From Mesorhizobium onobrychidis (lineage in GTDB: Bacteria > Pseudomonadota > Alphaproteobacteria > Rhizobiales > Rhizobiaceae), in contig NZ_CP062229.1 in assembly GCF_024707545.1 (NCBI RefSeq), positions 496,001 to 560,000 on the forward strand: 64,000 bases of DNA. Reading direction: 5' to 3'. Below the pieces are notes generated by a model that had not been told where the DNA came from, made no database searches, and worked only from the letters and a program-made list of their open reading frames with translations. The position numbers and the translations under genes are program-made. Of the stretch, positions 26,997 through 44,331 are shown piece after piece. Position 1 is the first letter of the stretch, and every line of letters begins with the position of its first letter.

Positions 26997-27458
26997 TCAG
27001 GCCAGCTTGGCCAAAAGCCTCATGAAGGTGGCGGCCTCCTTGGCCGAAAGCGGCGCCAGCGTTTCCTGAGTGATGTCGCGGGCGATCGGGATCAGCCGCT
27101 CGATGGCATCGCGGCCTTCAGCGGTCAGATTGACCAGCAGGCGCCTTTTGTCGACCTCATGCTTGGAAAGCTCGACCAGGCCGCGCGCCTTGAGCCGGTC
27201 GATGACACCTTTCACCGTCGCCGCATCCATGGCGATCAGGCTGCCAAGCTGGTTCTGCGAGGTCTCGCCGACGTCGTGCAATTTGGCCAGGGCGGCAAAT
27301 TGCGGCGGTGTCAGGTCGGCGATATGCGCCGCGAAGATCGAGACATGGCGCTGGTGCGCCTTGCGCAGAATGAAGCCGACCTGCTCCTGCAAGCGGTAAT
27401 CGTTTTCGTCAGGCTCTTCGGCCTCGACGAGCTTGAGCAGATTGTCCTCGCCGCTCAC
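26997..27458 (-). CDS. MarR-family transcriptional regulator, last gene of the hydroxylase operon
   Basis: A 153-residue MarR-type winged-helix protein: the dimerisation helices QEQVGFILRKAHQRHVSIFAAHI, then the DNA-binding core LTPPQFAALAKLHDVGETSQNQLGSLIAMDAATVKGVIDRLKARGLVELSKHEVDKRRLLVNLTAEG, where DKRRLLVNLT forms the wing. The start is a GTG at 27458 that overlaps the stop of the preceding gene (GTGA). It is co-translated with the catabolic genes, so it probably senses their substrate and represses the promoter at about 34.2-34.3 kb. In Bordetella a MarR-type protein (BpsR) controls nicotinate catabolism, a suggestive parallel only. Confidence 0.88.
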   Translation of the reverse strand: MSGEDNLLKLVEAEEPDENDYRLQEQVGFILRKAHQRHVSIFAAHIADLTPPQFAALAKLHDVGETSQNQLGSLIAMDAATVKGVIDRLKARGLVELSKHEVDKRRLLVNLTAEGRDAIERLIPIARDITQETLAPLSAKEAATFMRLLAKLA

Positions 27459-28039
27459 CGCAGCCCGTCCCAAGCCTTGATGTCTTTCGCCGCGAGGCCG
27501 CCCATACGGTCGTGCACGCGCGGGCCGCAGGTCATGGCGAGGCAGAACAGTATCTCGTCGGGACGAGGCCCGTCGCTGATGCCGACCTCCATGGCGTCGA
27601 AATGGCTGCGCACATAGGCGGCGTTGATGTGACCGAGCGGCACGTCGAGCCGCGAGCCGAAGGCGCCGACCTTCTTTGCCGATGGCACGATCGCCTTGGC
27701 GTCGCCGAGCCGCTCGCGCATGGCATAGCCGCCAGGCACATGCCACAGCGCGCCATGCTCCAGCTCGCCGGCGATACCGACGATGGCGCCCTTGCCGTAG
27801 CCGTCGATCTGCTTCACGTCGCCGCCCAATGCGGCGATCAGCTTGTCGGAGAGCAGCAGCCCCAGCGGCTTCAGATCGTCCATGGCGCTCTGCAGCTCCT
27901 CCACGTAGCGGCCGGCGAACGGGTTGTTCACCACCGCCATGGCGGCGGCACGGCGGCGCGGCACCTTCGCCACCGGCCCGCCCTCGTGAAATATCTCTTC
28001 GGTCAGCACGACAACCTTGCGGATCGCAAACTCAGGCAT
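27455..28039 (-). CDS. 'Amino acid synthesis' family protein (PF06684)
   Basis: A 194-residue cytoplasmic protein resembling the PF06684 'amino acid synthesis' family. Recognisable conserved stretches are IRKVVVLTEEIFHEGG, NPFAGRYVEEL, GYGKGAIVG, ELEHGALWHVPGGYAMR, PLGHINAAYVRSHFDAMEV and GPRVHDRMGG. The family name is historical and no reaction is firmly established. The ATG at 28039 overlaps the upstream gene by 8 nt. Conserved His, Glu and Asp residues would allow a hydrolase or isomerase role. In this operon a ring-opening or side-chain step after hydroxylation and reduction is an attractive but unproven guess. Confidence 0.8.
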   Translation of the reverse strand: MPEFAIRKVVVLTEEIFHEGGPVAKVPRRRAAAMAVVNNPFAGRYVEELQSAMDDLKPLGLLLSDKLIAALGGDVKQIDGYGKGAIVGIAGELEHGALWHVPGGYAMRERLGDAKAIVPSAKKVGAFGSRLDVPLGHINAAYVRSHFDAMEVGISDGPRPDEILFCLAMTCGPRVHDRMGGLAAKDIKAWDGLR

Positions 28040-28913
28040 GGGCAATTTCCTTACTTGATTTCTCGTTGGGCGCAGTGAGCGCCATGGGACCGGCGATCCG
28101 TGCCTGACCGGCAAGGAAAAGCGCTGAAGCGGCAATCAGGCCGTGTCGCCGAAAATCTTCGGCGACGGCGATCCCGCTGTCCAGCGCGGCGGCTATTTCG
28201 CTGGCAGAAAGCGCGCCGACGGCTTGGGTGACCAGGCGAGCGCCAAGGTCGCTGTCGGGCGCCAGATCGCACGCCGGCACGCGCTCGATGGCAGAATGAC
28301 CGGGCAGGTCGACGGCGTTGGCGATCAGGGTCGCCGCGGCGTCGGCTTCAGCACCCGTCCGCGCCAGCACGGTGACGGCGTCGGCGATGCCGAGCGAAAA
28401 GGAACGGCCGCGCCAGCCGCTTGTCGCGACGCCGCGGATCCCGTCTTCGGCACGGATCGTGATCCGGTCTGCGAGTCCATGGCCCGTACCGGCAATGGCT
28501 ACGGTCATGGACCGGCCGTTGCCGAGATGGATCGCGCTGTCGCCGCCATTATTGACGTAGGCGCGATCGAGCCGGCGGCCGGCCAGCAGCGCACCAAGCA
28601 TTTCGTCGGCTACCGAACCGGCGACCGCAGCCATCGGCGTGATGAATTGTTTCGCCAGCGGAACAACCGCCGCTTCCATGCGTCGCGCCGTCGGGCCAGC
28701 GAAAGCACGTGGTCGCGACGAGGCCGGGCGGCGCAGTTCTGGCAGTTCGTCGACGAGCTCCTGCAGGATTGTTTGAAACCGCGCCACCGCCTGGCCATAG
28801 GCGGCGCGGCACTCGTCCGCATCGCCAAATGCCTCGATGATCAGGTCGATCGGGCCATGATTGAGATGCAGCCGCCTGCCGGCCTCAAGCCAATGTACCT
28901 GCGGGCCGTTCAT
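28032..28913 (-). CDS. UPF0280 family protein (ApbE superfamily)
   Basis: A 293-residue protein of UPF0280, a group placed in the same superfamily as the flavin transferase ApbE. Signature stretches are VHWLEAGRRLHLNHGPIDLII, ITPMAAVAGSVADEMLGALL, RAYVNNGGDSAIHLGNG and GIRGVATSGWRGRSFSLGIADAVTVLA. ApbE attaches FMN to proteins, so a role in loading or handling flavin for the neighbouring redox enzymes is plausible but not shown. The start ATG shares one base with the upstream stop (TGATG). The open frame upstream to 29330 lies within the next gene and is not coding. Confidence 0.85.
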   Translation of the reverse strand: MNGPQVHWLEAGRRLHLNHGPIDLIIEAFGDADECRAAYGQAVARFQTILQELVDELPELRRPASSRPRAFAGPTARRMEAAVVPLAKQFITPMAAVAGSVADEMLGALLAGRRLDRAYVNNGGDSAIHLGNGRSMTVAIAGTGHGLADRITIRAEDGIRGVATSGWRGRSFSLGIADAVTVLARTGAEADAAATLIANAVDLPGHSAIERVPACDLAPDSDLGARLVTQAVGALSASEIAAALDSGIAVAEDFRRHGLIAASALFLAGQARIAGPMALTAPNEKSSKEIAHA

Positions 28914-30454
28914 CACCCGGCCCCGGTGCCCGCTGCGCGCCGCAACTGCGCCAGCGGCGGCCACGGATTGCTGGCCGGCGCGCCCGTGCCATGACGCGGA
29001 TTGAGGTACTCGCCGCCTTTGGCAAGGATATCCTCGACGCTGCGGATCTCGGCTTCGTAGCCGCCGAGCCTGACATAGTCGTCGCGGCGCAGGGTGAATT
29101 CGATCGGCGCCACCAGCGCCGGCGTCGGCACATAGCCGAAGGCGTTCTCCGGCACGCGGGTGACGTCGACCATCAGCGTGATGCCGCCGCCCGGCCAGAC
29201 ATAGACCGGCGCGCCGCCAACGGTCACATAGGTCGTCAGGCCCTGCACCGAGCGGGTCAGATTGACCGGGTTCTCGGTGACGCCGGCACGCAGCGAACCG
29301 CCGGCGCCGCCGACGAACAGCACGGTGCACAGCGCCGGTTCACAATTGTCCTCGATCAGGCCGACGGACTTCTGCAGCCGCTCCGGGAACGGTTTTTGCA
29401 CCGGCTTCAATTCGTCGTCGAGCTCGTAATAGGCGAACTGCTCGCCGGTGGTCGAGACCATCAGCAGCGACAGGCCGGGACGCGAGCCTTTCTTCGCATT
29501 CCACTCGCCCAGGATCGACAGCGGGTCGGAAATGCTGGTGCCGCCCCAGCCAAGGCCCGGCTCGGAGACCTTGAAATAGCGGCCCGGCGTCGAACGGCGG
29601 CCGATGATTTTTATCCCCGTATCCTGCCAGCCGAGCACCTTGCCCGCCTGATGCTCGGAGACGACGCCGGTGATGTGGTCGTCGACCACCACCACCTCGT
29701 CGACCAGGCCGCGCCACTGGGTGGCGAACATGCCGATGGTGGCCGAGCCGCAGCCGACGCGCATACGATGTTCGAGCTTGCCGTCGATGACCGGCGGCTT
29801 GCCGGCTTCGACGATGACCGCAGCACCGCCGTCGATGGTGAGTTCGACCGGCTTGCGGTTGCACAGATTGAGCATCGCATCGCAGGTGGCACGACCTTCG
29901 GCTTTCGAACCGCCGGTCAGATGGTGCACGCCGCCCAGCGACAGCATCTGCGAGCCGTATTCGCCTGTCGTGACATGGCCGATCGCCTCACCCGCCGCGC
30001 GGACCGTCGCCGTTTCGGGGCCGATATGACGGTCGGTATCGATCTTCACCTTGACGCCGCAGTAGGAGAAGATGCCCTCGGTGACGACGGTGACGAGATC
30101 GACGCCTTCGACCTCCTGGCTGACAATGAACGGGGCCGGCTTGTAGTCGGGATAGGTGGTGCCGGCGCCGATCGCGGTGACGAAGCGGCGGCCGGTGTTG
30201 ACCAGTTCGCCGTCCCAGGCCTCGCCTTCGGCGACAAACGGCACGACCGCGCCACCGGTCTCGGCCGCATGGTCGAGGATGGTCAGCGGATCCACCCGCA
30301 CGATCCTGCCGCCGACATTGCCGTAGCGATCACAGGCGCCGGTGCGGCCGTCGGCGATGTAGCACATCACCGGGCAGGCATCGCAGCGGATCTTTTCCGC
30401 CACCTGCTTCTCGCCGGGATCATGCGTCTCAAAGCGTTCGGCAAGCTCGCTCAT
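28913..30454 (-). CDS. 6-hydroxynicotinate reductase-like iron-sulfur protein
   Basis: A 513-residue protein of the type annotated as 6-hydroxynicotinate reductase (Hnr of Eubacterium barkeri), which reduces 6-hydroxynicotinate to 1,4,5,6-tetrahydro-6-oxonicotinate. The N-terminus has the cysteine set RCDACPVMCYIADGRTGACDRYGN, suited to an Fe-S cluster; the long C-terminal part is rich in glycine (GSATIGMF, GVTENPVNLTRSVQGLTTYVTVGGAPVYVWPGGG). The ATG at 30454 is chosen because AGGAGG is 7 nt upstream and it overlaps the hydroxylase stop as ATGA; the ATG at 30460 has a 1-nt spacer. The actual substrate here is inferred from family and context. Confidence 0.78.
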   Translation of the reverse strand: MSELAERFETHDPGEKQVAEKIRCDACPVMCYIADGRTGACDRYGNVGGRIVRVDPLTILDHAAETGGAVVPFVAEGEAWDGELVNTGRRFVTAIGAGTTYPDYKPAPFIVSQEVEGVDLVTVVTEGIFSYCGVKVKIDTDRHIGPETATVRAAGEAIGHVTTGEYGSQMLSLGGVHHLTGGSKAEGRATCDAMLNLCNRKPVELTIDGGAAVIVEAGKPPVIDGKLEHRMRVGCGSATIGMFATQWRGLVDEVVVVDDHITGVVSEHQAGKVLGWQDTGIKIIGRRSTPGRYFKVSEPGLGWGGTSISDPLSILGEWNAKKGSRPGLSLLMVSTTGEQFAYYELDDELKPVQKPFPERLQKSVGLIEDNCEPALCTVLFVGGAGGSLRAGVTENPVNLTRSVQGLTTYVTVGGAPVYVWPGGGITLMVDVTRVPENAFGYVPTPALVAPIEFTLRRDDYVRLGGYEAEIRSVEDILAKGGEYLNPRHGTGAPASNPWPPLAQLRRAAGTGAG

Positions 30455-33330
30455 CGGCATGCCTCCTTGTCGCGGATCGCGGCACGGATGCGGCTCGGCG
30501 TCGCCGGAATTTTGGTGACCAGGACACCGGTGGCATGACGGATGGCATTGAGGATCGCCGGTGACGTCGGGATCAGCACATGCTCGCCCAAGCCCTTGGC
30601 GCCAAAGGGCCCTTCCGGATCCGGAACTTCGATCAGGATGGTCTCGATCGGCGGTACGTCGCCGATGGTCGGGATAAGATAGTCGTGCAAATTCTCGGTG
30701 CGGCCGGGGATGTACTCTTCCATCAATGCCATGCCGATGCCTTGCGCGATGCCGCCCTCGATCTGGCCTTCGGCGAGCAGAGGGTTGATCGCCTTGCCGA
30801 CATCATGCGCGGCGGTGATCTTGATCAGCTTCACCGTACCGAGCTTGAGGTCGACCTCCAACTCGGCAATCTGCGCGCCGTAGCCATAGACGGCATAGGG
30901 CTTGCCCTGGCCCTTGGCGTCGAGCGGCAGCGTCGGCGGATCATAGCTTTCCTCGGCGCGGAAGACGAAACCGTCGGCATCGGCCTTCAGCGTGGACAAA
31001 TCGATATGCCGTGTCGCTTCGCCCTCGCGGATGATCAGGCTTGTGCCATCCAGAGCGATCGCCGCCTTCTCCGACACATTGGCAAAACGCAGCATGGTTT
31101 CGCGCAAGGCGCGGCCGGCCTTTTCGGCGGCCTTGCCGGTCACGAAGGTCTGGCGCGAAGCCGATGTCTTGCCGGCGTCCGGCGTGATCGCCGTGTCAGC
31201 GCTTTTCAGCCGGAATTTTTCCAGCGGCAGGCCGAGGGCGTCGGCGCAGATCTGGGCGATGACCGTGTTCGAGCCTTGCCCGATATCGACGGCACCCTGA
31301 TGCAGGACGACATCGCCAGAGGCGGAGATGCCGACCCTGATGGTCGACGGATTTGGCAGCGAGGTGTTGCCGCAGCCGTACCAGCAGGAGGCGACGCCGA
31401 CGCCACGTTTTTTTGTGCTGCTGCCGGCGTTGAACAACTCGGCATCGACAAGCGCACGCGCCCAATGCGACCGCAGCGCTTCGAGGCACTCGGCGATGCC
31501 GACGCCCGCTTCCAATCTCTGACCAGTAACCGTTTCGGAGCCGTTACGAAGGCAGTTTTTCAAGCGAAAGTCGAGCCGATCCAGCCGAAGCTTTTCGGCC
31601 AGCTCGTCATAGAGCGTCTCCTGCATGATCGTCGCCTGCGGCACGCCGAAACCGCGGAACGCGCCGGAGATCGGGCCATTTGTGTGGATGGCGCGGCCTT
31701 CGGCACGATAGTTCGGCGTGGCATAGGGACCGGAGGCGTGCACCGGCACGCGGTTGGCGACGGTCGGACCCCAGCTTGCATAGGCGCCGGTGTTGAAATC
31801 GCCTGCAAAGACCATACCGGTGACGCGGCCATCGGCATCGGCGCCGATGGTCGCCTTCATCTCGGCGGGATGACGCTTGGTGGTCGAGATCATCGATTCA
31901 TTGCGGGTGTAGACGAGTGCCGCCGGCCGCCCGGTTTTCATCGCGACCAGACCGATCAGCGGCTGCAACGAAACGTCGAGCTTGGAGCCAAAACCGCCGC
32001 CGGTGGCGGTCGGCACGATACGCACCTTGTCGACGGCAAGGCCAAGCACTTTTGCGGTGTCGTCGCGGTCCATGTAGGGCGCCTGCGTGCAGGCGACGAC
32101 GACGAGCGTGTCGCCGTCCATATAGGCATAGCCGGCTTCCGGCTCGATATAGGCGTGCTCGACATAGGATGTGTCGATGGCGCCCGAAACGATGAAGGCA
32201 GCGCCGGCAAGGGCGGCCTCCGGGTCACCGCGCTCGACAAAGCCGGTGGTGAGCAGGTTTGCCGGTCGGTTCTCGTGGATCAGTTGCACGCCGCCGGCCT
32301 GCGCCTCGCAAGGCTGCAGAAGGTGCGGCAACTCGGTCCAACGAACAGGAAAATCCGAAAGATCGAGATCGAGGATGGCCTCGCGCTCGCCGGCAACCAG
32401 CGCCACCGCCTCGCCGCGAAAGCGCGAAAAACCTTCAGCCAGCGCCGGCTGGTCGGCAAAAGGCGCAATGACGCCGAAGCAGTTCTTTCCCGGAATGTCG
32501 GCAGCGGTGAAGACGCCGACGATGCCGGGATGGACTTTCACCCAGGCGTCGAGATCGCCGAAGGCGAAGCGGGCGTGATAATGCGGCGAGCGAACCACCA
32601 GCACCGCCAGCGCATCGAGTGGGAAGGAATCGCCGCCGAATTTTTCGCCGCCAGTGACTTTCGGCAGGCCGTCGAGCCTGATCGGAGAGGAACCGACGGC
32701 GTGGCCGGCCTGCGGCATGCGATGGTCAAGGCCATTGGCATGGCGCGACGCATCCATCACCGCCGCAACGATCTTTCGATAGCCGGTGCAGCGGCAGAGG
32801 ACGCCGCCCAGCGCATCCTGGGTTTCGGCCTCGGTTGGGTTGGGCGTCCTTTCCAGAAGTGCGGTTGCCGCGACCAGCAGGCCGGGTGTGCAGATGCCAC
32901 ACTGCGCTGCGCCATGATCGAGGAACGACGCCTGCAGCGCCGACAATCTGCCGTTGGCGAGACCCTCGACGGTCGTCACCACGGTGCCAGCGGCAGAAGC
33001 CGCTGACATGAGGCAGGCGCAGACCGGTTCGCCATCGACGAGCACGGTGCAGGCGCCGCAGTCGCCGGCGTCGCAGCCGACTTTGGTGCCGGTCAGGTGC
33101 AATTCGTCGCGCAGCACCGAAGAGAGACGGCGAACCGGCGGTACGCAGACAGAAACGGCGACGCCGTTGACCTCGAAGGCGATGTCAGCGCGCTCCATGC
33201 TCATGCCAGGCTGAGCCATGCTCATGCCAGGCTGAGCCATGCTCATGCCAGGCTGAGCCATGCTCATGCCAGGCTGAGCCATGCTCATGCCAGGCTGAGC
33301 TTTGGTCATGCCAGGCGGAGCTTTGCTCAT
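30451..33330 (-). CDS. Xanthine dehydrogenase-family hydroxylase, fused 2Fe-2S and molybdopterin domains
   Basis: A 959-residue molybdenum hydroxylase. After a repeat-encoded N-terminal tail (about residues 1-45, MSMAQPG units) come the plant-type 2Fe-2S domain (GCDAGDCGACTVLVDGEPVCACL) and the second 2Fe-2S domain (QCGICTPGLLVAATALL ... GGVLCRCTGYRKIV). The molybdopterin part then has GGGFGSKLDVSLQPLIG, GAFRGFGVPQATIMQE and the active-site glutamate in GPFGAKGLGEHVL. Such enzymes hydroxylate N-heterocycles or purines. Small and large subunits are usually separate, so the fusion is notable; FAD is on the adjacent gene. The ATG at 33330 overlaps the upstream stop (ATGA), but many internal ATGs precede the conserved fold. 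Confidence 0.9.
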   Translation of the reverse strand: MSKAPPGMTKAQPGMSMAQPGMSMAQPGMSMAQPGMSMAQPGMSMERADIAFEVNGVAVSVCVPPVRRLSSVLRDELHLTGTKVGCDAGDCGACTVLVDGEPVCACLMSAASAAGTVVTTVEGLANGRLSALQASFLDHGAAQCGICTPGLLVAATALLERTPNPTEAETQDALGGVLCRCTGYRKIVAAVMDASRHANGLDHRMPQAGHAVGSSPIRLDGLPKVTGGEKFGGDSFPLDALAVLVVRSPHYHARFAFGDLDAWVKVHPGIVGVFTAADIPGKNCFGVIAPFADQPALAEGFSRFRGEAVALVAGEREAILDLDLSDFPVRWTELPHLLQPCEAQAGGVQLIHENRPANLLTTGFVERGDPEAALAGAAFIVSGAIDTSYVEHAYIEPEAGYAYMDGDTLVVVACTQAPYMDRDDTAKVLGLAVDKVRIVPTATGGGFGSKLDVSLQPLIGLVAMKTGRPAALVYTRNESMISTTKRHPAEMKATIGADADGRVTGMVFAGDFNTGAYASWGPTVANRVPVHASGPYATPNYRAEGRAIHTNGPISGAFRGFGVPQATIMQETLYDELAEKLRLDRLDFRLKNCLRNGSETVTGQRLEAGVGIAECLEALRSHWARALVDAELFNAGSSTKKRGVGVASCWYGCGNTSLPNPSTIRVGISASGDVVLHQGAVDIGQGSNTVIAQICADALGLPLEKFRLKSADTAITPDAGKTSASRQTFVTGKAAEKAGRALRETMLRFANVSEKAAIALDGTSLIIREGEATRHIDLSTLKADADGFVFRAEESYDPPTLPLDAKGQGKPYAVYGYGAQIAELEVDLKLGTVKLIKITAAHDVGKAINPLLAEGQIEGGIAQGIGMALMEEYIPGRTENLHDYLIPTIGDVPPIETILIEVPDPEGPFGAKGLGEHVLIPTSPAILNAIRHATGVLVTKIPATPSRIRAAIRDKEACR
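33196..33330. repeat. 21-bp tandem repeat at the 5' end of the hydroxylase gene
   Basis: Five perfect 21-bp units (plus-strand CATGCTCATGCCAGGCTGAGC) run from 33196 to 33300. They are followed by one diverged unit (33301-33321) and a partial one to 33330. On the coding (minus) strand each unit encodes MSMAQPG and carries two in-frame ATG codons. As 21 is a multiple of 3, copy-number change alters only the length of the N-terminal tail. It looks like a minisatellite, not a CRISPR. Confidence 0.95.
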
Positions 33331-34190
33331 GCGGCCACCGCCTTGTCATTCGACGCGTGACCCGCGGCACCGAGCACGGCGCGGGCGACGATCTCGCGCG
33401 CGGCGTCCAGCCGGTATTCGGCGCTGCCGCGCACATCGCCGATCGGCGACAACTCGTCCATCGGTGCAGACTGGATCGCAGTGGCGAGGGCGTGGTCAAC
33501 CGGGAGGCCGCGCAAGGCTGCTTCGACGCCCGAGAGACGCTTGGCGACAACCGAACAGGAGCCGACGGCGACGGCAGCGTTGCCGACGATGCCATCCTCA
33601 ATGGTCAAGCGGGCCGCCGCCATGGCTATCGAAATGACGAGATAGCGACGCGCGCCGAGCTTCACGAAAGCTGACGTGCCGGTGGCCGCGTTTTTCGGCA
33701 CGCGGATGGCGGTCACCATTTCGCCCGGCTGCAGTTCCGTGCGGCGGTTTCCCAGGATGAATTTTTCCAGCGGCAGATGGCGGACCATCGCAACCGTGCG
33801 CAGTTCGACCTCGGCGTCGAGGACGAGCAGCGCCGGCACGCCGTCGGCGGCCGGAGAGGCATTGCAGAGATTGCCGGCGATGGAGGCGACGTTCTGGATC
33901 TGCACGGAGCCGACTTCTCGCGCCGCCTGCTTCAGCGCATCGAAAGCCGCCGGCAGCGGATGACGGATAAGATCGGTCCAGGTCGTGCGCGCACCGATGA
34001 TCCAATGGTCCTCGGTCTGGGCGATACCACGCAGCGCCGCCAGACCGTTGATGTCGAGGACATTTTCATGGAAAGGCGTGGCTCCTTGCGTCGGATAGAA
34101 ATCGGTGCCGCCGGCAAGGATGCGCCACGGAGCCTCGCCAAGCAAAGCGAGCGCCTCGTCTATGGTGGTGGGTTTCGCGTAACGGATCAC
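33327..34190 (-). CDS. Xanthine dehydrogenase-family FAD-binding subunit
   Basis: A 287-residue FAD-binding medium subunit of the CoxM/XdhB type that passes electrons from the molybdenum and Fe-S centres to FAD. The N-terminus MIRYAKPTTIDEALALLGE, the FAD loop ILAGGTDFYPT and the second flavin motif QIQNVASIAGNLCNASPAADGVPALLVLDAEVEL are diagnostic. It is the first gene of the six-gene operon and overlaps the hydroxylase gene by 4 nt. No XdhC-type maturation factor adjoins it. The reaction of the complex is discussed with the hydroxylase subunit. Confidence 0.92.
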   Translation of the reverse strand: MIRYAKPTTIDEALALLGEAPWRILAGGTDFYPTQGATPFHENVLDINGLAALRGIAQTEDHWIIGARTTWTDLIRHPLPAAFDALKQAAREVGSVQIQNVASIAGNLCNASPAADGVPALLVLDAEVELRTVAMVRHLPLEKFILGNRRTELQPGEMVTAIRVPKNAATGTSAFVKLGARRYLVISIAMAAARLTIEDGIVGNAAVAVGSCSVVAKRLSGVEAALRGLPVDHALATAIQSAPMDELSPIGDVRGSAEYRLDAAREIVARAVLGAAGHASNDKAVAA

Positions 34191-34522: not shown

Positions 34523-35122
34523 ATGGCCGACGAAGCGCTTGTCATCATCGATCTGCAGAACGATTTCTGCCCGGGCGGCGCGCTGGCGGTGGCCGGCGGC
34601 GACGAGATCGTGCCTCTGGTCAACGACCTGATCCGGCGGACCGAACATGTCGTGCTGACGCAGGACTGGCATCCCGCCGGCCATTCGAGCTTTGCCTCCA
34701 GTCATCCCGGCAAGCAGCCGTTCGAAACGATTGACATGCCTTACGGCCAGCAGACGCTGTGGCCGGACCACTGCATCCAGGGCAGCCTGGGTTCGGATTT
34801 CCATTCGGGCCTTGCCTGGACCAAGGCCGAACTGGTGATCCGCAAGGGCTTCCGCCCGGAGATCGACAGCTATTCGGCTTTCTTCGAAAACGACCATGCG
34901 ACGCCGACTGGCCTTGCCGGCTATCTCCAGGAGCGCGGCATCGACACGCTGACCCTGGTCGGCCTGGCGACCGATTATTGCGTCGCCTTCTCGGCGCTCG
35001 ACGCGGTCAAGCACGGCTTTCACACAACAGTGCGGCTCGACGCCTGCCGCGGCATCGACCTCAATGGCTCCGTCGAGACGATGCTGAACCGAATGCGTGA
35101 TGCCGGCGTGACGCTGGCTTGA
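34523..35122 (+). CDS. pncA: Nicotinamidase
   Basis: A 199-residue isochorismatase-fold amidohydrolase that converts nicotinamide to nicotinate for NAD salvage. The catalytic Asp is in LVIIDLQNDFCPGGAL, the metal-site residues are in DWHPAGHSSFASSHPG, the catalytic Lys is in VIRKGFRPEIDSYSAFFEND and the nucleophilic Cys is in VGLATDYCVAFSALDA. All are intact. The ATG at 34523 follows GAGGAGG with a 5-nt spacer; the longer frame from 34436 is not supported. It is divergent from the hydroxylase/6-hydroxynicotinate-reductase-like operon. Its product nicotinate would be a natural substrate for that operon and for PncB, encoded at 43.0-44.3 kb. Confidence 0.95.
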   Translation: MADEALVIIDLQNDFCPGGALAVAGGDEIVPLVNDLIRRTEHVVLTQDWHPAGHSSFASSHPGKQPFETIDMPYGQQTLWPDHCIQGSLGSDFHSGLAWTKAELVIRKGFRPEIDSYSAFFENDHATPTGLAGYLQERGIDTLTLVGLATDYCVAFSALDAVKHGFHTTVRLDACRGIDLNGSVETMLNRMRDAGVTLA

Positions 35123-36594: not shown

Positions 36595-37314
36595 TCAGCC
36601 AACGCCGACATAGCGGCGGACCGCCGACGGATCGGCGCGGAGCTCCTCGACATCGACGGTCTCGCGGTTGCGGCCGTTCTCGATGAACGAGACCCGGTCG
36701 GCGACGGACAGCACGGCATCGACCCGCTGCTCGACCAGGATCGTCGAGACGCCAAGGTCGCGCAGTTTCGACACCGTCTCACGGATCCTGGCGATCATCG
36801 ACGGCATCAACCCTTCGGTCGGCTCATCGAGCAGAAGCACCTGCGGTTCGAGGCACAGTGCCCGTGCCATGGCCAGCATCTGCTGCTCGCCGCCCGACAG
36901 CGTCCCGGAGCGCTGCCTGAGCCGCTGGCGCAGCAGCGGGAAAAGGTCGAGCACGTTTTCGCGCGTTGCTTTGCCCTTGCCGCGCGCCATCAGGCCGATC
37001 TCGATGTTTTCCGCCACCGTCATCTCGGCGAACAGCCGCCGGCCCTGTGGCACATAGGCGACGCCGGCCTTCGGCACATCGTGCGCCGGCAGGCCGGTCA
37101 GCTCCTTGCCGTCGAGCCTGATCGAGCCGGCGCGTGAGGGAACGAGGCCCATGACCGCCTTCAGCGTCGTCGTCTTGCCGGCGCCGTTGCGGCCGAACAG
37201 GCAAAGCACCTCGCCCTTGTTCAACACGAGGTCGAGGCCGTAGAGCACCTGGACCTCGCCGTAGAAGCAGTCGAGCCCGGAGATGGTCAGTGCTTCAGAC
37301 CGTGTTTCAGTCAT
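36595..37314 (-). CDS. livF: Branched-chain amino-acid-type ABC transporter ATPase (LivF)
   Basis: A 239-residue ATPase with Walker A GRNGAGKTTTLKAVMG, signature LSGGEQQMLAMARAL and Walker B VLLLDEPTEGLMP, the LivF hallmark. It starts 4 nt inside the livG stop. It ends the livH-M-G-F gene set and energises uptake of a small amino acid, amide or carboxylate. Its 3' end abuts the antiporter gene on the other strand with no gap. Confidence 0.92.
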   Translation of the reverse strand: MTETRSEALTISGLDCFYGEVQVLYGLDLVLNKGEVLCLFGRNGAGKTTTLKAVMGLVPSRAGSIRLDGKELTGLPAHDVPKAGVAYVPQGRRLFAEMTVAENIEIGLMARGKGKATRENVLDLFPLLRQRLRQRSGTLSGGEQQMLAMARALCLEPQVLLLDEPTEGLMPSMIARIRETVSKLRDLGVSTILVEQRVDAVLSVADRVSFIENGRNRETVDVEELRADPSAVRRYVGVG

Positions 37315-38036
37315 GGGGCGGTCCCCAGGTAGGCGTCCTGCACTTCGGCATTGGCACGGACCTGCTCGGGCGTGCCTTCGGCCAGGATCTTGCCGGCGTT
37401 GAAGACGGTGATGCGGTCGGCAAGCTGCATGACCACCGGCATGTTGTGTTCGATCAGAAGCACAGTGGCGCTTTTGGCGATCTCGCGCACCAGCCCGATG
37501 AAATTGTCGATCTCGCTGTCGGCCAGCCCCTGCGTCGGCTCGTCGAGGATCAGCAGGCGCGGTTTTAGCGCCAACCCCATCGCCACTTCGAGCAGGCGCT
37601 GATGGCCATAGGACAATTGCCCGGCCGGCATGTGGGCGCGGTCGGCAAGGCCGGTGCGCTCAAGCGCCGCCATGACGCCGACATGCACGGCACCTTTCGA
37701 GCGGCCATCGGTCAGCGTGCGCTGCACCGGCAGCGCGACGTTGTCGTAGGCGGTGAGATTGGCAAAGACGCTGGTGATCTGGAAGGTGTAGGCGACGCCA
37801 AGGCGGACCCTGGCGTAGGCCGGCAGGTTGGTAATGTCGGCGCCGTCGAAGACGATCATGCCCGACGACGGCTGGATGCGGCCGCTGACCAGACTGACGA
37901 AGGTGGTCTTGCCGGCGCCATTGGGGCCGATGACGGCGCGAATCTCGCCCGGCATGAGGGCGAAGTCGACGCCGTCGACGGCGCGCAGGCCGCCGAAATT
38001 GCGGGACAGGCCTTTGGTCGTCAGCAGCGGCATCAT
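37311..38036 (-). CDS. livG: Branched-chain amino-acid-type ABC transporter ATPase (LivG)
   Basis: A 241-residue ATPase: LLTTKGLSRNFGGLRAVDGVDF, Walker A GPNGAGKTTFVSLVSG, signature LSYGHQRLLEVAMGL (the LSYG variant is common in LivG/UrtD) and Walker B LLILDEPTQGLADSEI. The ATG at 38036 overlaps the permease stop by 4 nt; an in-frame ATG at 38054 lies within that gene. It pairs with LivF as the second nucleotide-binding subunit. Confidence 0.92.
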   Translation of the reverse strand: MMPLLTTKGLSRNFGGLRAVDGVDFALMPGEIRAVIGPNGAGKTTFVSLVSGRIQPSSGMIVFDGADITNLPAYARVRLGVAYTFQITSVFANLTAYDNVALPVQRTLTDGRSKGAVHVGVMAALERTGLADRAHMPAGQLSYGHQRLLEVAMGLALKPRLLILDEPTQGLADSEIDNFIGLVREIAKSATVLLIEHNMPVVMQLADRITVFNAGKILAEGTPEQVRANAEVQDAYLGTAP

Positions 38037-38995
38037 GGCAGCCATCCAAGCCAACGCTGGCGGATGGTGCCGAGGATGCCCTTGGGAAAGAACAGCACCA
38101 GCAGGATGAGGGCGATGCCGACGATCAGCAGGTAGGCCGAGGTATAGCCGCTGGTGACATCGACGACATAGTACATGAACAGCGTGCCGATCGACGGACC
38201 GAGCGTGGTGGCAGCACCGCCGAGCAGCACCCAGAGCAGCGGCAGGATGGAATACTGCACCGACGCGAAAGTCGAGCCGACATAACCGAACAGCAGCGCG
38301 TAGGCCGCGCCCGAGGCCGCACAGATGGTGCCGGAGACGACGACCGCGGCGAGCTTGTTGGAAAACGTGTCGTAGCCGAGCATTTTGGTCCGCTCCTCGT
38401 TCTCGCGTATGGCGACCAGCACACGGCCATACCTGGAGCGGACGACAGCGAGCGTCACCAGCAGCACGATCGAGAACAGGGCGAGCGCGCTCATGTAGCG
38501 CACGGTCGGATTGGTGAGGCCGAGCGACGTGCCGCCCAAGACGAGCACACGCGCCGACTGCGGCACGACCAGGCCCTGGTCACCGCCGGTCCAGGACGCG
38601 AAATAGAGGATTATGAGATAGAACACCTGCGCGAACATCATGGTGACGATCATGAAGGCGACGCCAGAAGTGCGCAGCGCCAGCACCCCGATCACCAGCG
38701 CGAGAAGCGCGCCGCAGGCAAGGCCGGCGGCGAAGGCGGCCGGCACGCTCCAGCCGAGATGGATGACGGCAAGGCCTGCGCCATAGAGCCCGGCCGAAAA
38801 GAACATCGCATGGCCGAGGCTGAGCAGCCCGACATAGCCGAACAGCATGTTGTAGCCCATGGCGAAAACCGCCAGCACCATGATGCGGGCGAGCAGTCCG
38901 TGGTGATATTCCGGCAGGACGAAGCTTATGGCGAAAAGCAGGCCGATGATGCCCAGATGCAGCGCATAGGCTTTTGCCGGTGAAGCCTCCTTCAT
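38033..38995 (-). CDS. livM: Branched-chain amino-acid-type ABC transporter permease (LivM)
   Basis: A 320-residue permease with about nine helices. AVFAMGYNMLFGYVGLLSLGHAMFFSAGLYGAGL is the LivM signature, and the cytoplasmic coupling motif lies in RVLVAIRENEERTKMLGYDTFSNKLAAVVVSG. A C-terminal positively charged tail follows the last helix. It is overlapped by neighbours at both ends, typical of a single translational unit with livH, livG and livF. Confidence 0.92.
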   Translation of the reverse strand: MKEASPAKAYALHLGIIGLLFAISFVLPEYHHGLLARIMVLAVFAMGYNMLFGYVGLLSLGHAMFFSAGLYGAGLAVIHLGWSVPAAFAAGLACGALLALVIGVLALRTSGVAFMIVTMMFAQVFYLIILYFASWTGGDQGLVVPQSARVLVLGGTSLGLTNPTVRYMSALALFSIVLLVTLAVVRSRYGRVLVAIRENEERTKMLGYDTFSNKLAAVVVSGTICAASGAAYALLFGYVGSTFASVQYSILPLLWVLLGGAATTLGPSIGTLFMYYVVDVTSGYTSAYLLIVGIALILLVLFFPKGILGTIRQRWLGWLP

Positions 38996-39873
38996 CGCGA
39001 TGCCGTCCCGAACAGACCTTGCGGCCGGAACACCAGCACCATGGCAACCAGCAGCGTGGCGATGATCTTGGCCAGCGTCGGCGAGAAGAACACCGAGATG
39101 ATGCCGTCCGACAGGCCGATGAGCACGGCGGCGACGACGGTGCCGCGCAGCGAGCCGAGCCCGCCGATGATGACGACGATGAAGGATAGCAGCAGCGGGT
39201 CCTGCCCCATCAGGTAGTGCGCCTGGCTGATCGGCACGATCAGCACGGCGGCCACCGCCGCCAGCATGGCGCCGAGCGCGAAGACGCCGGCATAGACGCG
39301 GTCGACCGGGATGCCGAAGGCCTGCGCCGTCTCGCTGTCATATTGCGTGGCGCGCATGACGAGGCCGATTTTCGTACGCGTCAGCACGAACCACGTCGCA
39401 ATAAGCAGAAGCGTGGATGCGGCGATGATCGACAGCTTGTAGCCGGAGTAGCCGAACCACGGCAAAAGGATGCGGTAGCTGAAGGGCGGCTCCACCGGCC
39501 GTGCGTCCGGACCATAAAAGGTCAGCGCCAGTTGCTGGATGATGTAGAGCATGCCGATCGTGGCGACGATGGTGGCTTCCGGATTGTAATTCAGCCGGCG
39601 CAACACCAGCCGTTCGGCGACCAGGGCGATCAGGCCGACGATCAGTGGCGCCAGCATCAGGGCGGCCAGGAAGCCGAGCGCCGGATGGCCCGATATCGCC
39701 GTGGAGATCGCCCAGGCAAGCACCGCGCCCAGCATGAAGAACTCGCCATGGGCGACATTGACGACGCGCATGACGCCGAACACCAGCGACAGGCCAAGCG
39801 CCGTCAGCGCCAGCACGGCGGAGGTGACGAGGCCTTCGAGGGCAGCGAGGAGAAGATGAGGTCCGAACGCCAT
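38992..39873 (-). CDS. livH: Branched-chain amino-acid-type ABC transporter permease (LivH)
   Basis: A 293-residue permease: ALTALGLSLVFGVMRVVNVAHGEFFMLGAVLAWA is the LivH/UrtB signature, followed by GLVMRATQYDSETAQAFGIPVDRVYAGVFALGAMLAAVAAVL (coupling helix) and GLGSLRGTVVAAVLIGLSDGI. It lies 217 bp downstream of the binding-protein gene, with a long inverted repeat in the gap, and overlaps livM by 4 nt. Confidence 0.92.
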   Translation of the reverse strand: MAFGPHLLLAALEGLVTSAVLALTALGLSLVFGVMRVVNVAHGEFFMLGAVLAWAISTAISGHPALGFLAALMLAPLIVGLIALVAERLVLRRLNYNPEATIVATIGMLYIIQQLALTFYGPDARPVEPPFSYRILLPWFGYSGYKLSIIAASTLLLIATWFVLTRTKIGLVMRATQYDSETAQAFGIPVDRVYAGVFALGAMLAAVAAVLIVPISQAHYLMGQDPLLLSFIVVIIGGLGSLRGTVVAAVLIGLSDGIISVFFSPTLAKIIATLLVAMVLVFRPQGLFGTASR

Positions 39874-40090: not shown

Positions 40091-41395
40091 TCACAGCGGC
40101 TGGGTCGTGTAATCCCCTTCCGGCTCGTAGAGGCCGTCCTCGATCTTGGTCTTGTGGACGACGTTCAGCCGGCCGCCTTCGACCTTGGAGATGTTCTGGA
40201 TGCCAAAACACTGGTGGATCTTGCCGTTGAAGGTCTTCGGCCCCTGCGGATGCTCGGGGCCTTCGGCGAACTCGGTCAAGGCCTCGGTCGCCTCGACCAG
40301 CTTGGCGCGGTCTTCCGGACCCTTGTAGCCGGCATCCTCCATCGCCTTCTTGACGACATAGAGCGTTTCCCAGCAGCCGAACATGTGGGCGGCGGTGGAG
40401 ACGTCCTTCGGATCGCCGACGGCAGCACCATTGTCGTCGATGCCGACGGCGGCGCGATAGGCCTTCTGCGCGGCGGAATCATCGGGCTGCGCGTAGCGCG
40501 GCGAGCCTTCCCAGAAATGGCTGCCATCGAGGAATTCGAGGCCGGGGCTGTTGATGTCGGTGGCTTCGAGCGAATCGATGAAGCCGAACAGCTGCGGCCG
40601 GTTGGAGCCGTAGAATTCGCCGAGTTCCTTGACGAAGGTGAGCACCGCCGGGCCGACCATAACGTGGTAGATCACCTCGGTTTCGGCCGGGATCTGCGGA
40701 AAGTATTTGGTGAAGGACGATTCCGTCGGCGGGATGGCGATCTGGGCGATGACCTCGGCGCCTTGCGCCTTCAGCGCCGGCGGCAGGTAGTCGCGATGGT
40801 CGTAGCCGAAGGCGAAATCTGGGAATATCTGCGTCACCTTCTTGCCGGCATTCGCCGCGATCCATGGCGCCATCGCCTGGATCTGGCTCTTCACGTCGGT
40901 GATGCCGGGCTGGAAGACGTAGCGGTTGAGCTTGGTCGACGCGACGTGGTGGCCTTCGCTGACGACAAAATAGGGCATCTTGGCCTCGCCGGCGGCCGGC
41001 GCCGACCCGATGACGACATGCGAAAACAGCGTGCCGTAGACGATGTCGGTCTTGTGCTGGGTGGCGAATTTGCCGACCACTTCGGCGCCTCGGCCGGGAT
41101 CGGTGCCATCATCCTCGATGATCACCTCGACCGGCCGGCCGTTGATGCCGCCGGCTTCGTTGATCGCCTTGACCGCGGCGGCGGTAGTCCTCTCGTACCA
41201 GCGGCCATAGGCAGCGCCAATGCCGGTGCGGTGGCACTGGAAGCCGATCTTTATCGGCGCCGAGCTCTGCGCCTGGCTGTAGCGCACGAACCCGGGCGCG
41301 ACGGCGAGACCGGCGCCCGCGGCCAACCCCTTGAGCGCCGTGCGGCGGGTGAGACCGGTGTTGGAGAGATCGAAAAACCCATTCTTGTCAGTCAC
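40091..41395 (-). CDS. ABC transporter substrate-binding protein (type I periplasmic, LIV-type)
   Basis: A 434-residue exported binding protein. A twin-arginine signal is visible near residues 17-45 (TGLTRRTALKGLAAGAGLAVAPG). The mature protein has the LivJ-type fold: IKIGFQCHRTGIGAAYGRWYERTTAAAVKAINEAGGINGRPVEVIIEDDGTDPGRGAEV. I take the GTG at 41395 with AGGGGAA upstream as the start; the ORF to 41476 has no ribosome-binding site. The ligand could be an amino acid, amide or aromatic carboxylate. The location between pncA and pncB makes a pyridine carboxylate worth testing. Confidence 0.87.
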   Translation of the reverse strand: MTDKNGFFDLSNTGLTRRTALKGLAAGAGLAVAPGFVRYSQAQSSAPIKIGFQCHRTGIGAAYGRWYERTTAAAVKAINEAGGINGRPVEVIIEDDGTDPGRGAEVVGKFATQHKTDIVYGTLFSHVVIGSAPAAGEAKMPYFVVSEGHHVASTKLNRYVFQPGITDVKSQIQAMAPWIAANAGKKVTQIFPDFAFGYDHRDYLPPALKAQGAEVIAQIAIPPTESSFTKYFPQIPAETEVIYHVMVGPAVLTFVKELGEFYGSNRPQLFGFIDSLEATDINSPGLEFLDGSHFWEGSPRYAQPDDSAAQKAYRAAVGIDDNGAAVGDPKDVSTAAHMFGCWETLYVVKKAMEDAGYKGPEDRAKLVEATEALTEFAEGPEHPQGPKTFNGKIHQCFGIQNISKVEGGRLNVVHKTKIEDGLYEPEGDYTTQPL

Positions 41396-41562
41396 GGCGG
41401 TTCCCCTTGTTTTTTGAGTTTTGACCAATGGCTGTAGCGAGACGGGCCACTCTTGGTAAGAGCGCCGAAATTGCATGTGTACAAACTAAATCACCAAAGC
41501 CCTGATGTGGCAAGCTGGCTTTCCCCAACGGTCAATCGACGCCGTCGAAGTGGGCTTTTGTC

Positions 41563-43002
41563 TCATCCGGCAGCCGGCGTGGCAAGCAGCCACAGGCCGA
41601 AGACCGTATAGGCGATCATCAGCACGGTGAGCGGAAACTGGCTGAGCGCGGCGCGGGCGGGAACCGGATGCAATCGCCAGGCGAGGCCATGCGCGACGAG
41701 CACGGCGAGCATGTGGCCTATGATGATGACGCCGGCCTGAAAATTCCACAGCCACCATACCGAGCCGGCGCCGGCGGCCGCGCCAGCTTCGATCCGCATG
41801 TCGGCGGTGCCGAACAGGTTCCAGCCCAGCGCAAACGGGTCGGAAAGCGCAGCCATGGCGTATTGGCCGTCGACGAGCAGCGCCGTCAGATAGTGCGCAA
41901 CATGATAGGCGAGCGCGATCGGCACGATCGACCAGACCAGCAGCCCTGCAGCCTGACCGAGGGAATGCGGGCTGCCGGCAAGACGCTGGCCGAGGACAAT
42001 TGCAAGGATGAACACGGCCGCAAGCAGGACGAACGTCAGCACGAGCCCGAAGGTGCCGATGCCGATCGTCGCCGTGCGGCCTGGAAATTCCAGCGGATTG
42101 AGCCCGAACAGGCCGAGCCAGAAGAAGGTTTTGGACAGACCGTCGAAGGAGACCGACGACAGCGCAAGCAGCAGGAAAGCAATGCCGCTGAGCGACAGCG
42201 GCGCGGCATCGCTGAGCTTGGCGCCCGGCCAGCACAGACTGAGTCGCCCGCCTTCATTGCGCTCGACTTCATTGCGCTCAAGGAGGGCGAATCGCGCCAC
42301 CATGGCGAGGAAGACGGTCAGGAACTCGCCGCGCCGGCCCCAGTCGCGGTAGCCGAACACCAGCATGGCGGCAAAACTCAGCAGCCAATAGAGGCCGGCA
42401 GCCCAGGCGAGCCGCGCCGGGTCGTCGGGCGCCGGGTCGATCAGCTCGAACCAGGCGAAGGCGAAGAACAGCACGACGGCCGGCCAGCAGCCGAGCCACG
42501 GAGGCGGGCGCCATGTTTCGCGTTTGCCGAACAGGTTCGAAATGATACGCCAAGGCCCGTACCAGGGATTCAGCCATGACCAAAGATTGCCGAGCAGCCC
42601 CTGCAGCAGAACCAGCCCAACCCAGAGCAGCGTCCATATCGCTAGGGGCAGCGGGTTGGAGAGCGGATCGCGGCTGCCGAACAGGCCAGCCGCAATAAGG
42701 ATTGCGAAGCCGGCAAAGGATATCAGGCTGACGGTTGCCCGTGCGCCGTCGCCGAATGCGAACAGCGGCAGACGCCGCCGCCAGAAGCGGGCAGGAAAGT
42801 CTGAGGGCAGCAGTGCCAGGACAAGGAAACTGGCGGCGACCGCGAGCGCACCGCCGGCGACGTAGTAGCCGGTGGGCAGAAGCAGGACGTGGCCGCGATC
42901 GGAGGCATGGGCGGAGGCGGGGGTGGGCAACAGGAGGGCCAACGAAGCCGCAAAGGGCATTGCTATTGCCAAGCGACAGCGCTCTACGGCGAAGGAACTC
43001 AT
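41563..43002 (-). CDS. Uncharacterised polytopic membrane protein downstream of pncB
   Basis: A 479-residue protein with an N-terminal signal-like segment ending near TPASAHASDRG and about eleven membrane helices. Notable conserved features are the tryptophan-rich LLGNLWSWLNPWYGPWRII, histidines in ALAYHVAHYLTALLVDGQ, and GHMLAVLVAHGLAWRL near the end. I recall similar proteins annotated as fenitrothion hydrolase-like, but I cannot verify this, so no function is assigned. It starts 24 nt after the pncB stop (ATG at 43002; TTG at 43011 also has a usable Shine-Dalgarno sequence), so it is probably co-transcribed with pncB. Confidence 0.7.
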   Translation of the reverse strand: MSSFAVERCRLAIAMPFAASLALLLPTPASAHASDRGHVLLLPTGYYVAGGALAVAASFLVLALLPSDFPARFWRRRLPLFAFGDGARATVSLISFAGFAILIAAGLFGSRDPLSNPLPLAIWTLLWVGLVLLQGLLGNLWSWLNPWYGPWRIISNLFGKRETWRPPPWLGCWPAVVLFFAFAWFELIDPAPDDPARLAWAAGLYWLLSFAAMLVFGYRDWGRRGEFLTVFLAMVARFALLERNEVERNEGGRLSLCWPGAKLSDAAPLSLSGIAFLLLALSSVSFDGLSKTFFWLGLFGLNPLEFPGRTATIGIGTFGLVLTFVLLAAVFILAIVLGQRLAGSPHSLGQAAGLLVWSIVPIALAYHVAHYLTALLVDGQYAMAALSDPFALGWNLFGTADMRIEAGAAAGAGSVWWLWNFQAGVIIIGHMLAVLVAHGLAWRLHPVPARAALSQFPLTVLMIAYTVFGLWLLATPAAG

Positions 43003-43026
43003 GCTATCCAAGAGTTCCCTCGCCCC

Positions 43027-44331
43027 TCACACCTTGACCAGCTGCTCCACACGGTCTTTCTCGCCGAAGATGCGCAAATAGCGTTCGATCTCTTTCTCGT
43101 CGCCGGTGGCCTTGGCGGGATTGTCGGAGAGCTTGACCGCCGGGCGGCCATTGGCCTCGGTGACCTTGCAGACCAGCGAGATGGCGTCGAGCCGGTTGGT
43201 GTCGGTCGGCGCGCAGCCTTCGAAATCATTGGTCAGATTGGTGCCCCAGCCGAAGGACATGCGCACCTTGCCGCAGAAGTGGCGGTAGGTTTCCTCGATG
43301 GTCTCGACCTCGAGCCCGTCGGAGAAGATAAGCAGCTTCTGCCTGGGGTCCTTGCCCTTTTCACGCCACCAGGAAAGGATCTTCTCACCGCCCTCGATCG
43401 GCGGCGCGCTGTCGGGGCGGAAACCGGTCCAGTCGGCGACCCAGTCCGGCACGTCACGCAGGAATGCCGCGGTGCCGAAGGTGTCCGGCAGCACGATCAG
43501 CAAATTGCCGCCATAGTAGCGCTGCCAGTCCTGCAGCACCTTGTAGGGCGACTGTTTCAATTCCTTTTCCGAATTGGCGAGCGCGGCGAACACCATCGGC
43601 AGTTCATGCGCGTTGGTGCCGAGCGCCTCGAGGTCGTTGTCCATGGCCAAAAGCACGTTGGAGGTGCCGGTGAAAGCCTCGCCGATGCCTTCCTTCAGCG
43701 CTTCGACGCACCAGCGCTGCCACAGGAAGGAATGGCGTCGGCGGGTGCCAAAATCCGAAATGCGGATATCGGGCAGCGCTTTCAGCCGTTCGGTCTTGGC
43801 CCAGATCTTGGCCTTGGCGCGTGCATAGAGCACGTCGAGCGCGAAGGGCCCGAACGCCCGCATTGCGGCGCGCGACCGCAACTCGTTGATGATGGCGAGC
43901 GCCGGGATCTCCCACAGCGTCGTGTACATCCACGGGCCGCTGAAGCTCAATTCGTACTGGCCATCGCGCTTGGAAAGCTCGTATTCGGGCAGCTGGAAAT
44001 TCTCGAGCCAGGCGAGGAATTCCGGTTCGAAGATCTGCTTGCGGCCATAGAAGGTATTGCCGCCGAGCCAGATCATCTCTTTCTTCGAGAAGCGCAAGGT
44101 GCGGGCATGGTCGAGCTGATCGCGCAGTTCTGCTTCGTCGATCTCCTCGGCAAGACGGACCGAGGTGGTGCGGTTGATCAGCGAGAAGGTGGCATCGACC
44201 TTGGGATACATGCCCCAGATCATCTGCAGCATCAGCAGCTTGTAGAAATCGGTGTCGAGCAGGCTGCGGACGATCGGGTCGAGCTTCCAGGTGTGGTTGT
44301 AGACGCGCCGCGCTATATCGGTCTTAGTCAT
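43027..44331 (-). CDS. pncB: Nicotinate phosphoribosyltransferase
   Basis: A 434-residue enzyme that makes nicotinate mononucleotide from nicotinate and PRPP in the Preiss-Handler NAD salvage route. The N-terminal [25 protein letters not shown], the central [21 protein letters not shown] (with the histidine that is phosphorylated in this family) and the late [34 protein letters not shown] phosphoribosyl-binding region identify PncB. It completes the salvage pair with pncA at 34.5 kb. Upstream lies the LysR gene, 138 bp away. Confidence 0.95.

Follow-up and report, generated by a model that had tools for sequence, protein, structure and literature searches.

A predicted nicotinate catabolism operon of Mesorhizobium onobrychidis and the alternation of two ring-opener candidates among genomes with its 6-hydroxynicotinate reductase gene

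The analysed stretch of 64,000 nucleotides (nt), referred to as the window, comes from the 7.55 Mb genome of Mesorhizobium onobrychidis (contig NZ_CP062229.1, positions 496,001 to 560,000). At 26997..34190 it carries six genes that form a single run on the minus strand and overlap by 1-8 nt at all five stop/start junctions. The third gene encodes a relative of 6-hydroxynicotinate reductase (Hnr), and by this protein the closest named relatives, among the best 80 of at least 592 confirmed loci, belong to Mesorhizobium, with identities of up to 97%. We propose, with a probability of about 68%, that the operon provides the enzymes for the first two steps of an aerobic nicotinate catabolism via 1,4,5,6-tetrahydro-6-oxonicotinate (THON), a six-membered cyclic amide, and that a HyuA/HyuB pair (HyuAB) encoded elsewhere in the genome replaces the enamidase. 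The operon itself is of a known kind; new here are the swap of the ring-opener candidates and the strict pairing of Hnr with a UPF0280 protein.

The first gene of the operon (33327..34190, minus strand, as for all six) encodes the flavin adenine dinucleotide (FAD)-binding subunit of a molybdenum hydroxylase (PF00941, E 3e-41; PF03450). Its top NCBIfam match is the xanthine dehydrogenase protein XdhB, under the cut-off of that model. The second gene (30451..33330), which overlaps the first by 4 nt (ATGA), encodes a fused 2Fe-2S/molybdopterin (MoCo) hydroxylase with the domains PF00111/PF01799/PF02738/PF20256. This protein is the proposed nicotinate 6-hydroxylase, nicotinate being its predicted substrate, and its matches in the PDB include the aldehyde oxidoreductase 1dgj and the nicotinate dehydrogenase 3hrd. 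At its 5′ end the MoCo gene carries an in-frame 21-bp tandem repeat of 6.6 copies (window 33195-33332), which codes for a repeated 7-residue unit in an N-terminal extension and contains many ATGs; the start of the gene is therefore uncertain. The third gene (28913..30454, predicted start) encodes Hnr, a full-length member of the family named 6-hydroxynicotinate reductase, whose relatives are so named in NCBI and UniRef entries. The second ATG, at 30454, is preceded by AGGAGG 7 nt upstream and gives a protein of 513 residues, as in several close relatives; the overlap with the MoCo gene is 4 nt from this ATG and 10 nt from the first one. Next to it, with an overlap of 1 nt (TGATG), is the gene of the UPF0280 (COG2122) protein, the strict partner of Hnr (28032..28913; NF003322, 397 bits against a cut-off of 290). 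The last two genes encode a PF06684 protein (formerly DUF1185; 27455..28039, 234 bits), overlapping the UPF0280 gene by 8 nt, and a MarR regulator (PF01047; 26997..27458, with a probable GTG start), overlapping the PF06684 gene by 4 nt (GTGA). The raw open reading frames of the UPF0280, PF06684 and MarR genes are overlong, and their likely starts are internal. The Pfam and NCBIfam matches and the reading of the junctions confirm the six overlapping genes and their families as given in the initial annotation.

Hnr carries four conserved N-terminal cysteines (26, 29, 33 and 43 in the numbering of the 515-residue reading). No Pfam family was found for it at E <= 0.001. Searches of the PDB by sequence and by profile returned nothing better than E 0.5, and the idea that Hnr is a recognisable relative of a solved structure was rejected. 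A relationship with DUF39 was also rejected, as DUF39 is absent from the five Pfam families listed at E <= 10 for 42 Hnr sequences, a negative that is limited by the HMMER filters, which drop many weak matches. A weak match to GCV_T_C is present in 35 of the 42 sequences, the best at 6e-4. The Hnr alignments consist of the best-scoring sequences and exclude locus L050, where a stop lies inside Hnr.

The distribution of the genes was followed in 289 genomes sampled evenly across the class; the queries were Hnr (E <= 1e-50), the HyuB type found with the Hnr module, enamidase, UPF0280 and PF06684. Hnr is present in 44 of them, including G028, where it lies in two frames; partial pieces at contig ends were counted (HyuB and UPF0280 in G064, Hnr in G231). 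UPF0280 was found in all 44 Hnr genomes and in none of the other 245. Gene order was compared in 80 named-genome loci, the best 80 mentioned above, among which close kin of the window are over-represented, and in 14 of the 26 plasmid records carrying Hnr. The UPF0280 gene follows Hnr downstream, in the same orientation, in 80/80 genome loci and 14/14 plasmid records, a linkage that far exceeds chance. Two of the loci, L041 and L080, are cut by a contig end, and the aligned stretch of L082 contains a stop. PF06684 (tblastn, at least 35% identity) is present in 70 of the 80 genome loci, with L041 and L080 among the ten misses, and in all 14 plasmid records. The six genes stay together in the Mesorhizobium loci. 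The co-occurrence that the initial annotation proposed to search for holds for Hnr and UPF0280, which share the same 44 of 289 genomes, and holds in part for PF06684, found in 39 of the 44. In the two SAR116 loci (L072 and L076) Hnr and a divergent UPF0280 gene (32-36%) are followed by an ATP-binding cassette (ABC) transporter and further genes that are arranged differently, and no PF06684 was found at the locus. Two candidate sequences were discarded: P0072, an apparent Hnr-MoCo gene fusion that includes a seemingly out-of-frame segment and probably reflects a frameshift artefact, and P0038, in which part of the sequence is duplicated.

It had been suggested that UPF0280 supplies flavin to the reductase, that is, attaches flavin mononucleotide or FAD to Hnr. 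The finding of UPF0280 only with Hnr in the 289 genomes is in line with such a role, as are the weak matches of 17 of 32 UPF0280 members to Pfam ApbE (best E 1.6e-4); the Hnr of Eubacterium barkeri has been reported to be a flavoprotein. However, an ApbE domain is not recognisable in the window protein, which matches no Pfam family at E <= 10. The UPF0280 family profile, searched against the PDB, reaches 2o34 ('Hypothetical protein'), which we take to be a UPF0280 member, with no other chain better than E 0.3 and no ApbE structure. In the parts covered of Price et al. 2018, the homology between UPF0280/COG2122 and ApbE is said to seem not to extend to the flavin-binding region, and COG2122 is given a role together with DUF39. 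MA1715, the COG2122 protein of M. acetivorans, is called a sulfur-trafficking protein in the passages available (PMC12068725). The missing ApbE structure, the weak ApbE matches and the statement of Price et al. make flavin transfer by UPF0280 doubtful, strict as the pairing is.

Two candidates for the ring-opening step accompany Hnr. HyuB was counted at 60% identity or more and enamidase at 65% or more, whereas enamidase-like matches of 35-41% were regarded as paralogues and left uncounted. By these cut-offs HyuB is present in 29 of the 289 genomes, 27 of them with Hnr, and enamidase in 18, of which 17 have Hnr. The 44 Hnr genomes are thereby divided completely: 27 contain HyuB only and 17 enamidase only, while none contains both and none neither. 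The candidate gene lies within 15 kb of Hnr in 14 of the 27 HyuB genomes and 12 of the 17 enamidase genomes, and farther off or on another contig in the remainder. A further 183 genomes, sampled from the phylum, added nine Hnr genomes, for which all ring-opener candidates were scored: six have HyuB and three enamidase, and the ten Hnr-negative genomes checked alongside contained neither. Among the named-genome loci, 22 of 80 have a local HyuA or HyuB and two an enamidase, never both; nine of the 14 plasmid records have HyuAB and five an enamidase, and none is without.

The distribution of the ring-opener label was also mapped on an Hnr tree of 57 rows, comprising 43 of the 44 genomes and the 14 plasmid records; G081, whose aligned stretch is interrupted by a stop, and the shorter of the two G028 pieces were excluded. 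At least nine switches are required, at least four of which are forced by well-supported branches, compared with an average of 17.7 for shuffled labels. The label is therefore clustered on the tree, yet it has switched repeatedly, and sister rows with opposite labels include G210/G104. The replacement of HyuAB and enamidase by each other in all 44 genomes points to the same step for both. The amidohydrolase associated with the module matches the E. barkeri enamidase 2vun over its whole length (E 7e-105 and 2e-111), which ties the Hnr module to the nicotinate route. Ferredoxin-NADP reductase, HyuA/HyuB and the amidohydrolase are recurrent neighbours of this module; of the loci with HyuA/HyuB, 22 of 31 also encode the reductase, as do 4 of 7 enamidase loci and 4 of the other 56. 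On the plasmid of Fuscovulum ytuae, the FAD, MoCo, Hnr, UPF0280, PF06684, membrane protein, transporter, HyuA and HyuB genes all lie on one strand.

No enamidase match was found in the genome of the window at E <= 1e-40, with the best 6 of 12 candidates scored. HyuB, HyuA and a ferredoxin reductase are encoded side by side outside the window, at about C1:617,800-622,700 (locus L096), 93 kb from Hnr. Among five sister genomes the distance between HyuB and Hnr is 3.7-4.7 kb in two (G440, G334) and 73-99 kb in two (G330, G348), and the genes lie on different contigs in the fifth (G395). Given this variation, the separation of the two loci seems to have arisen by rearrangement inside the genus. 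The initial annotation had noted the missing enamidase and reasoned that the route either differs or is split; the two alternatives both appear to apply, given the lack of an enamidase among the candidates scored and the HyuAB pair 93 kb away.

The HyuA of this pair has both DxGGT motifs and its HyuB the Asp-His-Asp-His tetrad. These residues are conserved throughout, the two motifs in 49/49 aligned HyuA stretches and the tetrad in 47/47 aligned HyuB stretches, some of the loci overlapping. The tetrad corresponds to the metal ligands of the caprolactamase CapB in the part of PMC8453981 covered. With HyuA and HyuB, two DxGGT motifs and the metal tetrad, the pair has the features of an ATP-dependent lactamase, the Pfam domains having been checked on the Fuscovulum pair. 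Its scores against the NCBIfam caprolactamase models, 503 and 329 bits, are below the cut-off of 1000. For enzymes of the HyuAB family a mechanism has been proposed in which ATP activates the cyclic amide and hydrolysis follows at a metal site, and their substrates include hydantoins, oxoproline and lactams (PMC8453981, in part); OplAB hydrolyses the six-membered valerolactam (PMC11033972, in part). Titles and abstract beginnings in the literature, with partial coverage that is no proof of absence, gave no link between hydantoinase or oxoprolinase and nicotinate. As the family acts on cyclic amides that include valerolactam, and THON is a cyclic amide of the same ring size, HyuAB is proposed as an alternative THON opener.

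In the known route, as described in the covered parts of PMC3511419 and PMC9304392, nicotinate is converted via 6-hydroxynicotinate into THON, which is opened hydrolytically, in E. barkeri by a bifunctional enamidase. For the operon we infer a corresponding sequence of steps, including its substrates, electron path, import and regulation. The FAD subunit together with the fused 2Fe-2S/MoCo protein would hydroxylate nicotinate to 6-hydroxynicotinate, which Hnr, with UPF0280 as an obligate partner, would reduce to THON. The electrons for Hnr may come from ferredoxin, re-reduced by the ferredoxin-NADP reductase encoded with HyuAB. THON would then be opened by the ATP-dependent HyuA and HyuB and not by an enamidase: HyuA is predicted to phosphorylate the lactim and HyuB to hydrolyse it at the metal site, and the leftover enamine would lose ammonia to give 2-formylglutarate. 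The MarR protein may control the operon, the Liv-type ABC transporter described below may import the substrate, and the neighbouring pncA and pncB genes would connect the pathway to nicotinamide and to the salvage of nicotinamide adenine dinucleotide. The view of the initial annotation that the genes form a hydroxylate-then-reduce route for an N-heterocycle, linked to nicotinate and with later steps encoded elsewhere, is judged to be right.

The PF06684 protein had also been considered as the enzyme that opens or processes the ring. PF06684 is more frequent in genomes with Hnr (39 of 44) than in the others (18 of 245), and in two genomes where Hnr was not found, G060 and G202, it lies directly upstream of an enamidase-like hydrolase of about 42% identity (L156 8167-10001; L157 about 7581-9372). 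That nicotinate is the substrate, HyuAB acts later or on a side product, and THON has a different opener such as PF06684 is conceivable but quite unlikely. However, five of the 44 Hnr genomes, all of the HyuAB type, gave no PF06684 match, and the protein was for this reason rejected as a general ring opener; the mutual replacement of HyuAB and enamidase in all 44 likewise favours a shared step. Two or more PF06684 copies are present in 16 of 17 enamidase genomes versus 8 of 27 HyuAB genomes, and PF06684 seems to be tied not to Hnr but to the enamidase-type hydrolase family. A function in ring opening or deamination is probable for it. G395 has a separate PF06684-PF06684-enamidase-MarR-isochorismatase cluster without Hnr (L155 8955-12723) and the ordinary operon on another contig. 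Crystal structures of PF06684 have been published without a demonstrated function (PMC2954203, in part), and attempts to see an effect of the homologue HcdD in 7-hydroxycoumarin breakdown failed (PMC7913881, in part).

The genes around the operon offer further connections to the proposed nicotinate pathway. The divergent neighbour encodes the nicotinamidase PncA (34523..35122, plus strand, probable start within a reading frame from 34436; NF008623, 219 bits against a cut-off of 174). The divergent intergenic region of 245 bp contains an inverted repeat with arms 22 nt apart that are only 83% complementary, and it was set aside as a candidate MarR operator. PncA is present in 41 of the 80 named-genome loci, in several arrangements. 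Upstream of the operon and on the same strand are the genes of an ABC transporter of the Liv/Urt type with two ATPases and two permeases (36595..39873), its substrate-binding protein (40091..41476; PF13458), a membrane protein without a Pfam family (41563..43011) and the nicotinate phosphoribosyltransferase PncB (43027..44331; TIGR01514, 301 bits against a cut-off of 270). The transporter, which adjoins the operon in many loci, is the proposed importer of the substrate. The membrane protein lies beside the same transporter in other loci (by clustering, 25 of 82, many of which stop short of the gene) and may belong to the uptake system. The operon, the transporter and this membrane protein are found together in Rhizobiales and Rhodobacterales loci, while other Hnr carriers have a more distant Liv/Urt-type ABC transporter in its place; a CitMHS_2 transporter also adjoins the operon. 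The same neighbourhood is seen in Ruegeria (Silicibacter) pomeroyi, where the PF06684 gene SPO0826 adjoins the ABC transporter SPO0822-0825 (PMC2954203, in part); the covered passages of an R. pomeroyi fitness paper contain nothing on this locus (PMC10041152). Between the permease and binding-protein genes of the window lies a long inverted repeat (39901-40058) with 53-nt arms that are 94% complementary and 52 nt apart. This repeat resembles rhizobial intergenic elements.

An alternative assignment gives the operon and HyuAB a different N-heterocycle as substrate, such as another hydroxylated pyridine or a pyrimidine- or hydantoin-like ring; the nicotinate names would then be owed to homology only. 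The Mo protein scores under the cut-off of every NCBIfam model matched, and its closest PDB relatives are aldehyde oxidoreductases and not the nicotinate dehydrogenase. Genomes differ in the type of transporter and in the ring opener, and some plasmid records differ also in the hydroxylase: it is xanthine dehydrogenase-like in most loci, whereas relatives of the cytochrome-carrying nicotinate dehydrogenase NicAB take its place in 4 of the 14 plasmid records (L084, L085, L101, L103). The wide substrate range of HyuAB-family enzymes noted above fits this alternative as well. We nevertheless regard it as unlikely, since relatives of the 2vun enamidase and of NicAB, PncA/PncB and a partly BpsR-like MarR recur with the same Hnr, and since the Hnr of the 6-hydroxynicotinate-degrading strain SG-6C sits in a cluster of this kind (PMC3511419, in part). 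The likeness to BpsR, which binds 6-hydroxynicotinate (PMC6837509, in part), is incomplete. By spacing alone, the operon MarR has Tyr, Arg and His at the positions of BpsR Tyr15, Arg26 and His32, and Phe at the position of His23; among 54 MarR matches outside the close kin, Tyr and Arg are present in 54 each, His32 in 40 and His23 in 6.

Several points weigh against the nicotinate pathway with HyuAB as the THON opener. What is observed is gene order, protein families, co-occurrence, the division of the Hnr genomes by ring-opener candidate and the retention of active-site residues. The Fisher value for the partition (1.5e-12) overstates independence because the sampled genomes are related, and each of the 289 genomes was scored by its best four HyuB, among the matches listed, and its best six enamidase matches, so that a second copy could be missed. 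Relatives of HyuB are found without Hnr at 60-62% in G217 and G114 and at 56-59% in G182, G095, G011, G120 and G224, and enamidase without Hnr in one genome (G082). In the second sample, five of the nine additional Hnr genomes belong to the genus of the window, and G395, one of the six with HyuB, also has an enamidase (61%), in the separate cluster mentioned above. The enamidase plasmid record L106 also holds a distant HyuAB pair (42-44%). Neither HyuAB nor enamidase is present in the DNA examined around Hnr in 56 of the 80 named-genome loci, and NicB relatives (at least 45%) are present in none of the 80. PncA lies beside the operon mostly in Rhizobiaceae-like loci, the aldehyde oxidoreductases are the nearest structures to the Mo protein, and the operon MarR lacks one of the four BpsR ligands and is thus, by spacing, not a full match to BpsR.

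If HyuAB opens THON, it would supply the third step in those 27 of the 44 sampled carriers that lack an identified enamidase, the ring opener named in the papers considered, and a defined substrate could be given to a family that goes by the annotation hydantoinase/oxoprolinase. A broader claim, that aerobic bacteria use two non-homologous and interchangeable THON openers, enamidase and a repeatedly swapped HyuAB, and that UPF0280 is a dedicated factor essential for Hnr, is in our estimate evenly balanced between true and false. Were it true, the HyuAB pair would gain THON as a substrate and UPF0280/COG2122 a second enzyme client besides DUF39, with a hint of a common non-flavin maturation role. 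Because UPF0280 pairs so strictly with Hnr, the function of a family that has long gone unassigned can be tested in a host that is aerobic and amenable to genetics. Nicotinate is common both as a vitamin and as a plant metabolite, and the same route takes in 6-chloronicotinate, a compound connected with neonicotinoid insecticides (PMC3511419, in part).

The closest known system is the conserved Hnr cluster of Azorhizobium and the Bradyrhizobiaceae reported in 2012 (Shettigar et al., PMC3511419, considered here in part), with members in A. caulinodans ORS571 (AZC_2804-2790), Bradyrhizobium japonicum, R. palustris HaA2 and strain SG-6C, whose Hnr relative shares 42% identity with that of E. barkeri. 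That paper assigns the cluster by homology to the THON nicotinate route and cites the biochemical work of Kitts et al. for A. caulinodans. The operon can therefore not be called undescribed, as it was in the initial annotation. That the six genes form a self-contained, undescribed catabolic route is very improbable: they overlap and stay together in Mesorhizobium loci, but a cluster of this kind with an importer has been described for nicotinate, and no recognised ring opener or downstream enzyme is among the six. Both clusters combine an Hnr relative with a putative ABC importer of nicotinate and two conserved proteins that have no assigned role. The 2012 cluster is said to hold the genes of the first three steps, whereas the window cluster is without the third, for which the genome has HyuAB as a candidate; the parts of the main text covered mention neither hydantoinase, oxoprolinase nor enamidase. 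The nicotinate pathway of E. barkeri (Alhapel et al. 2006, as described in citing papers) shares the order of hydroxylation, reduction to THON and ring opening as well as the Hnr family, and its enamidase family recurs with Hnr in other genomes. It differs in using the enamidase and in a hydroxylase divided over more subunits (3hrd chains A, B and D) than the two in the window. The E. barkeri enzyme has four such subunits in all. The caprolactamase CapAB and the oxoprolinase OplAB share with the proposed THON opener the HyuA/HyuB domains, the two DxGGT ATP motifs, the Asp-His-Asp-His metal site and the action on cyclic amides (PMC8453981 and PMC11033972, both in part), whereas the pair of the window's genome is below the caprolactamase cut-offs and linked to Hnr. 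The COG2122/DUF39 homocysteine pathway resembles the Hnr-UPF0280 pair in that UPF0280/COG2122 is needed alongside an enzyme working with a ferredoxin protein, and it differs in its partner, DUF39, and in its product, homocysteine (PMC5764234, in part).

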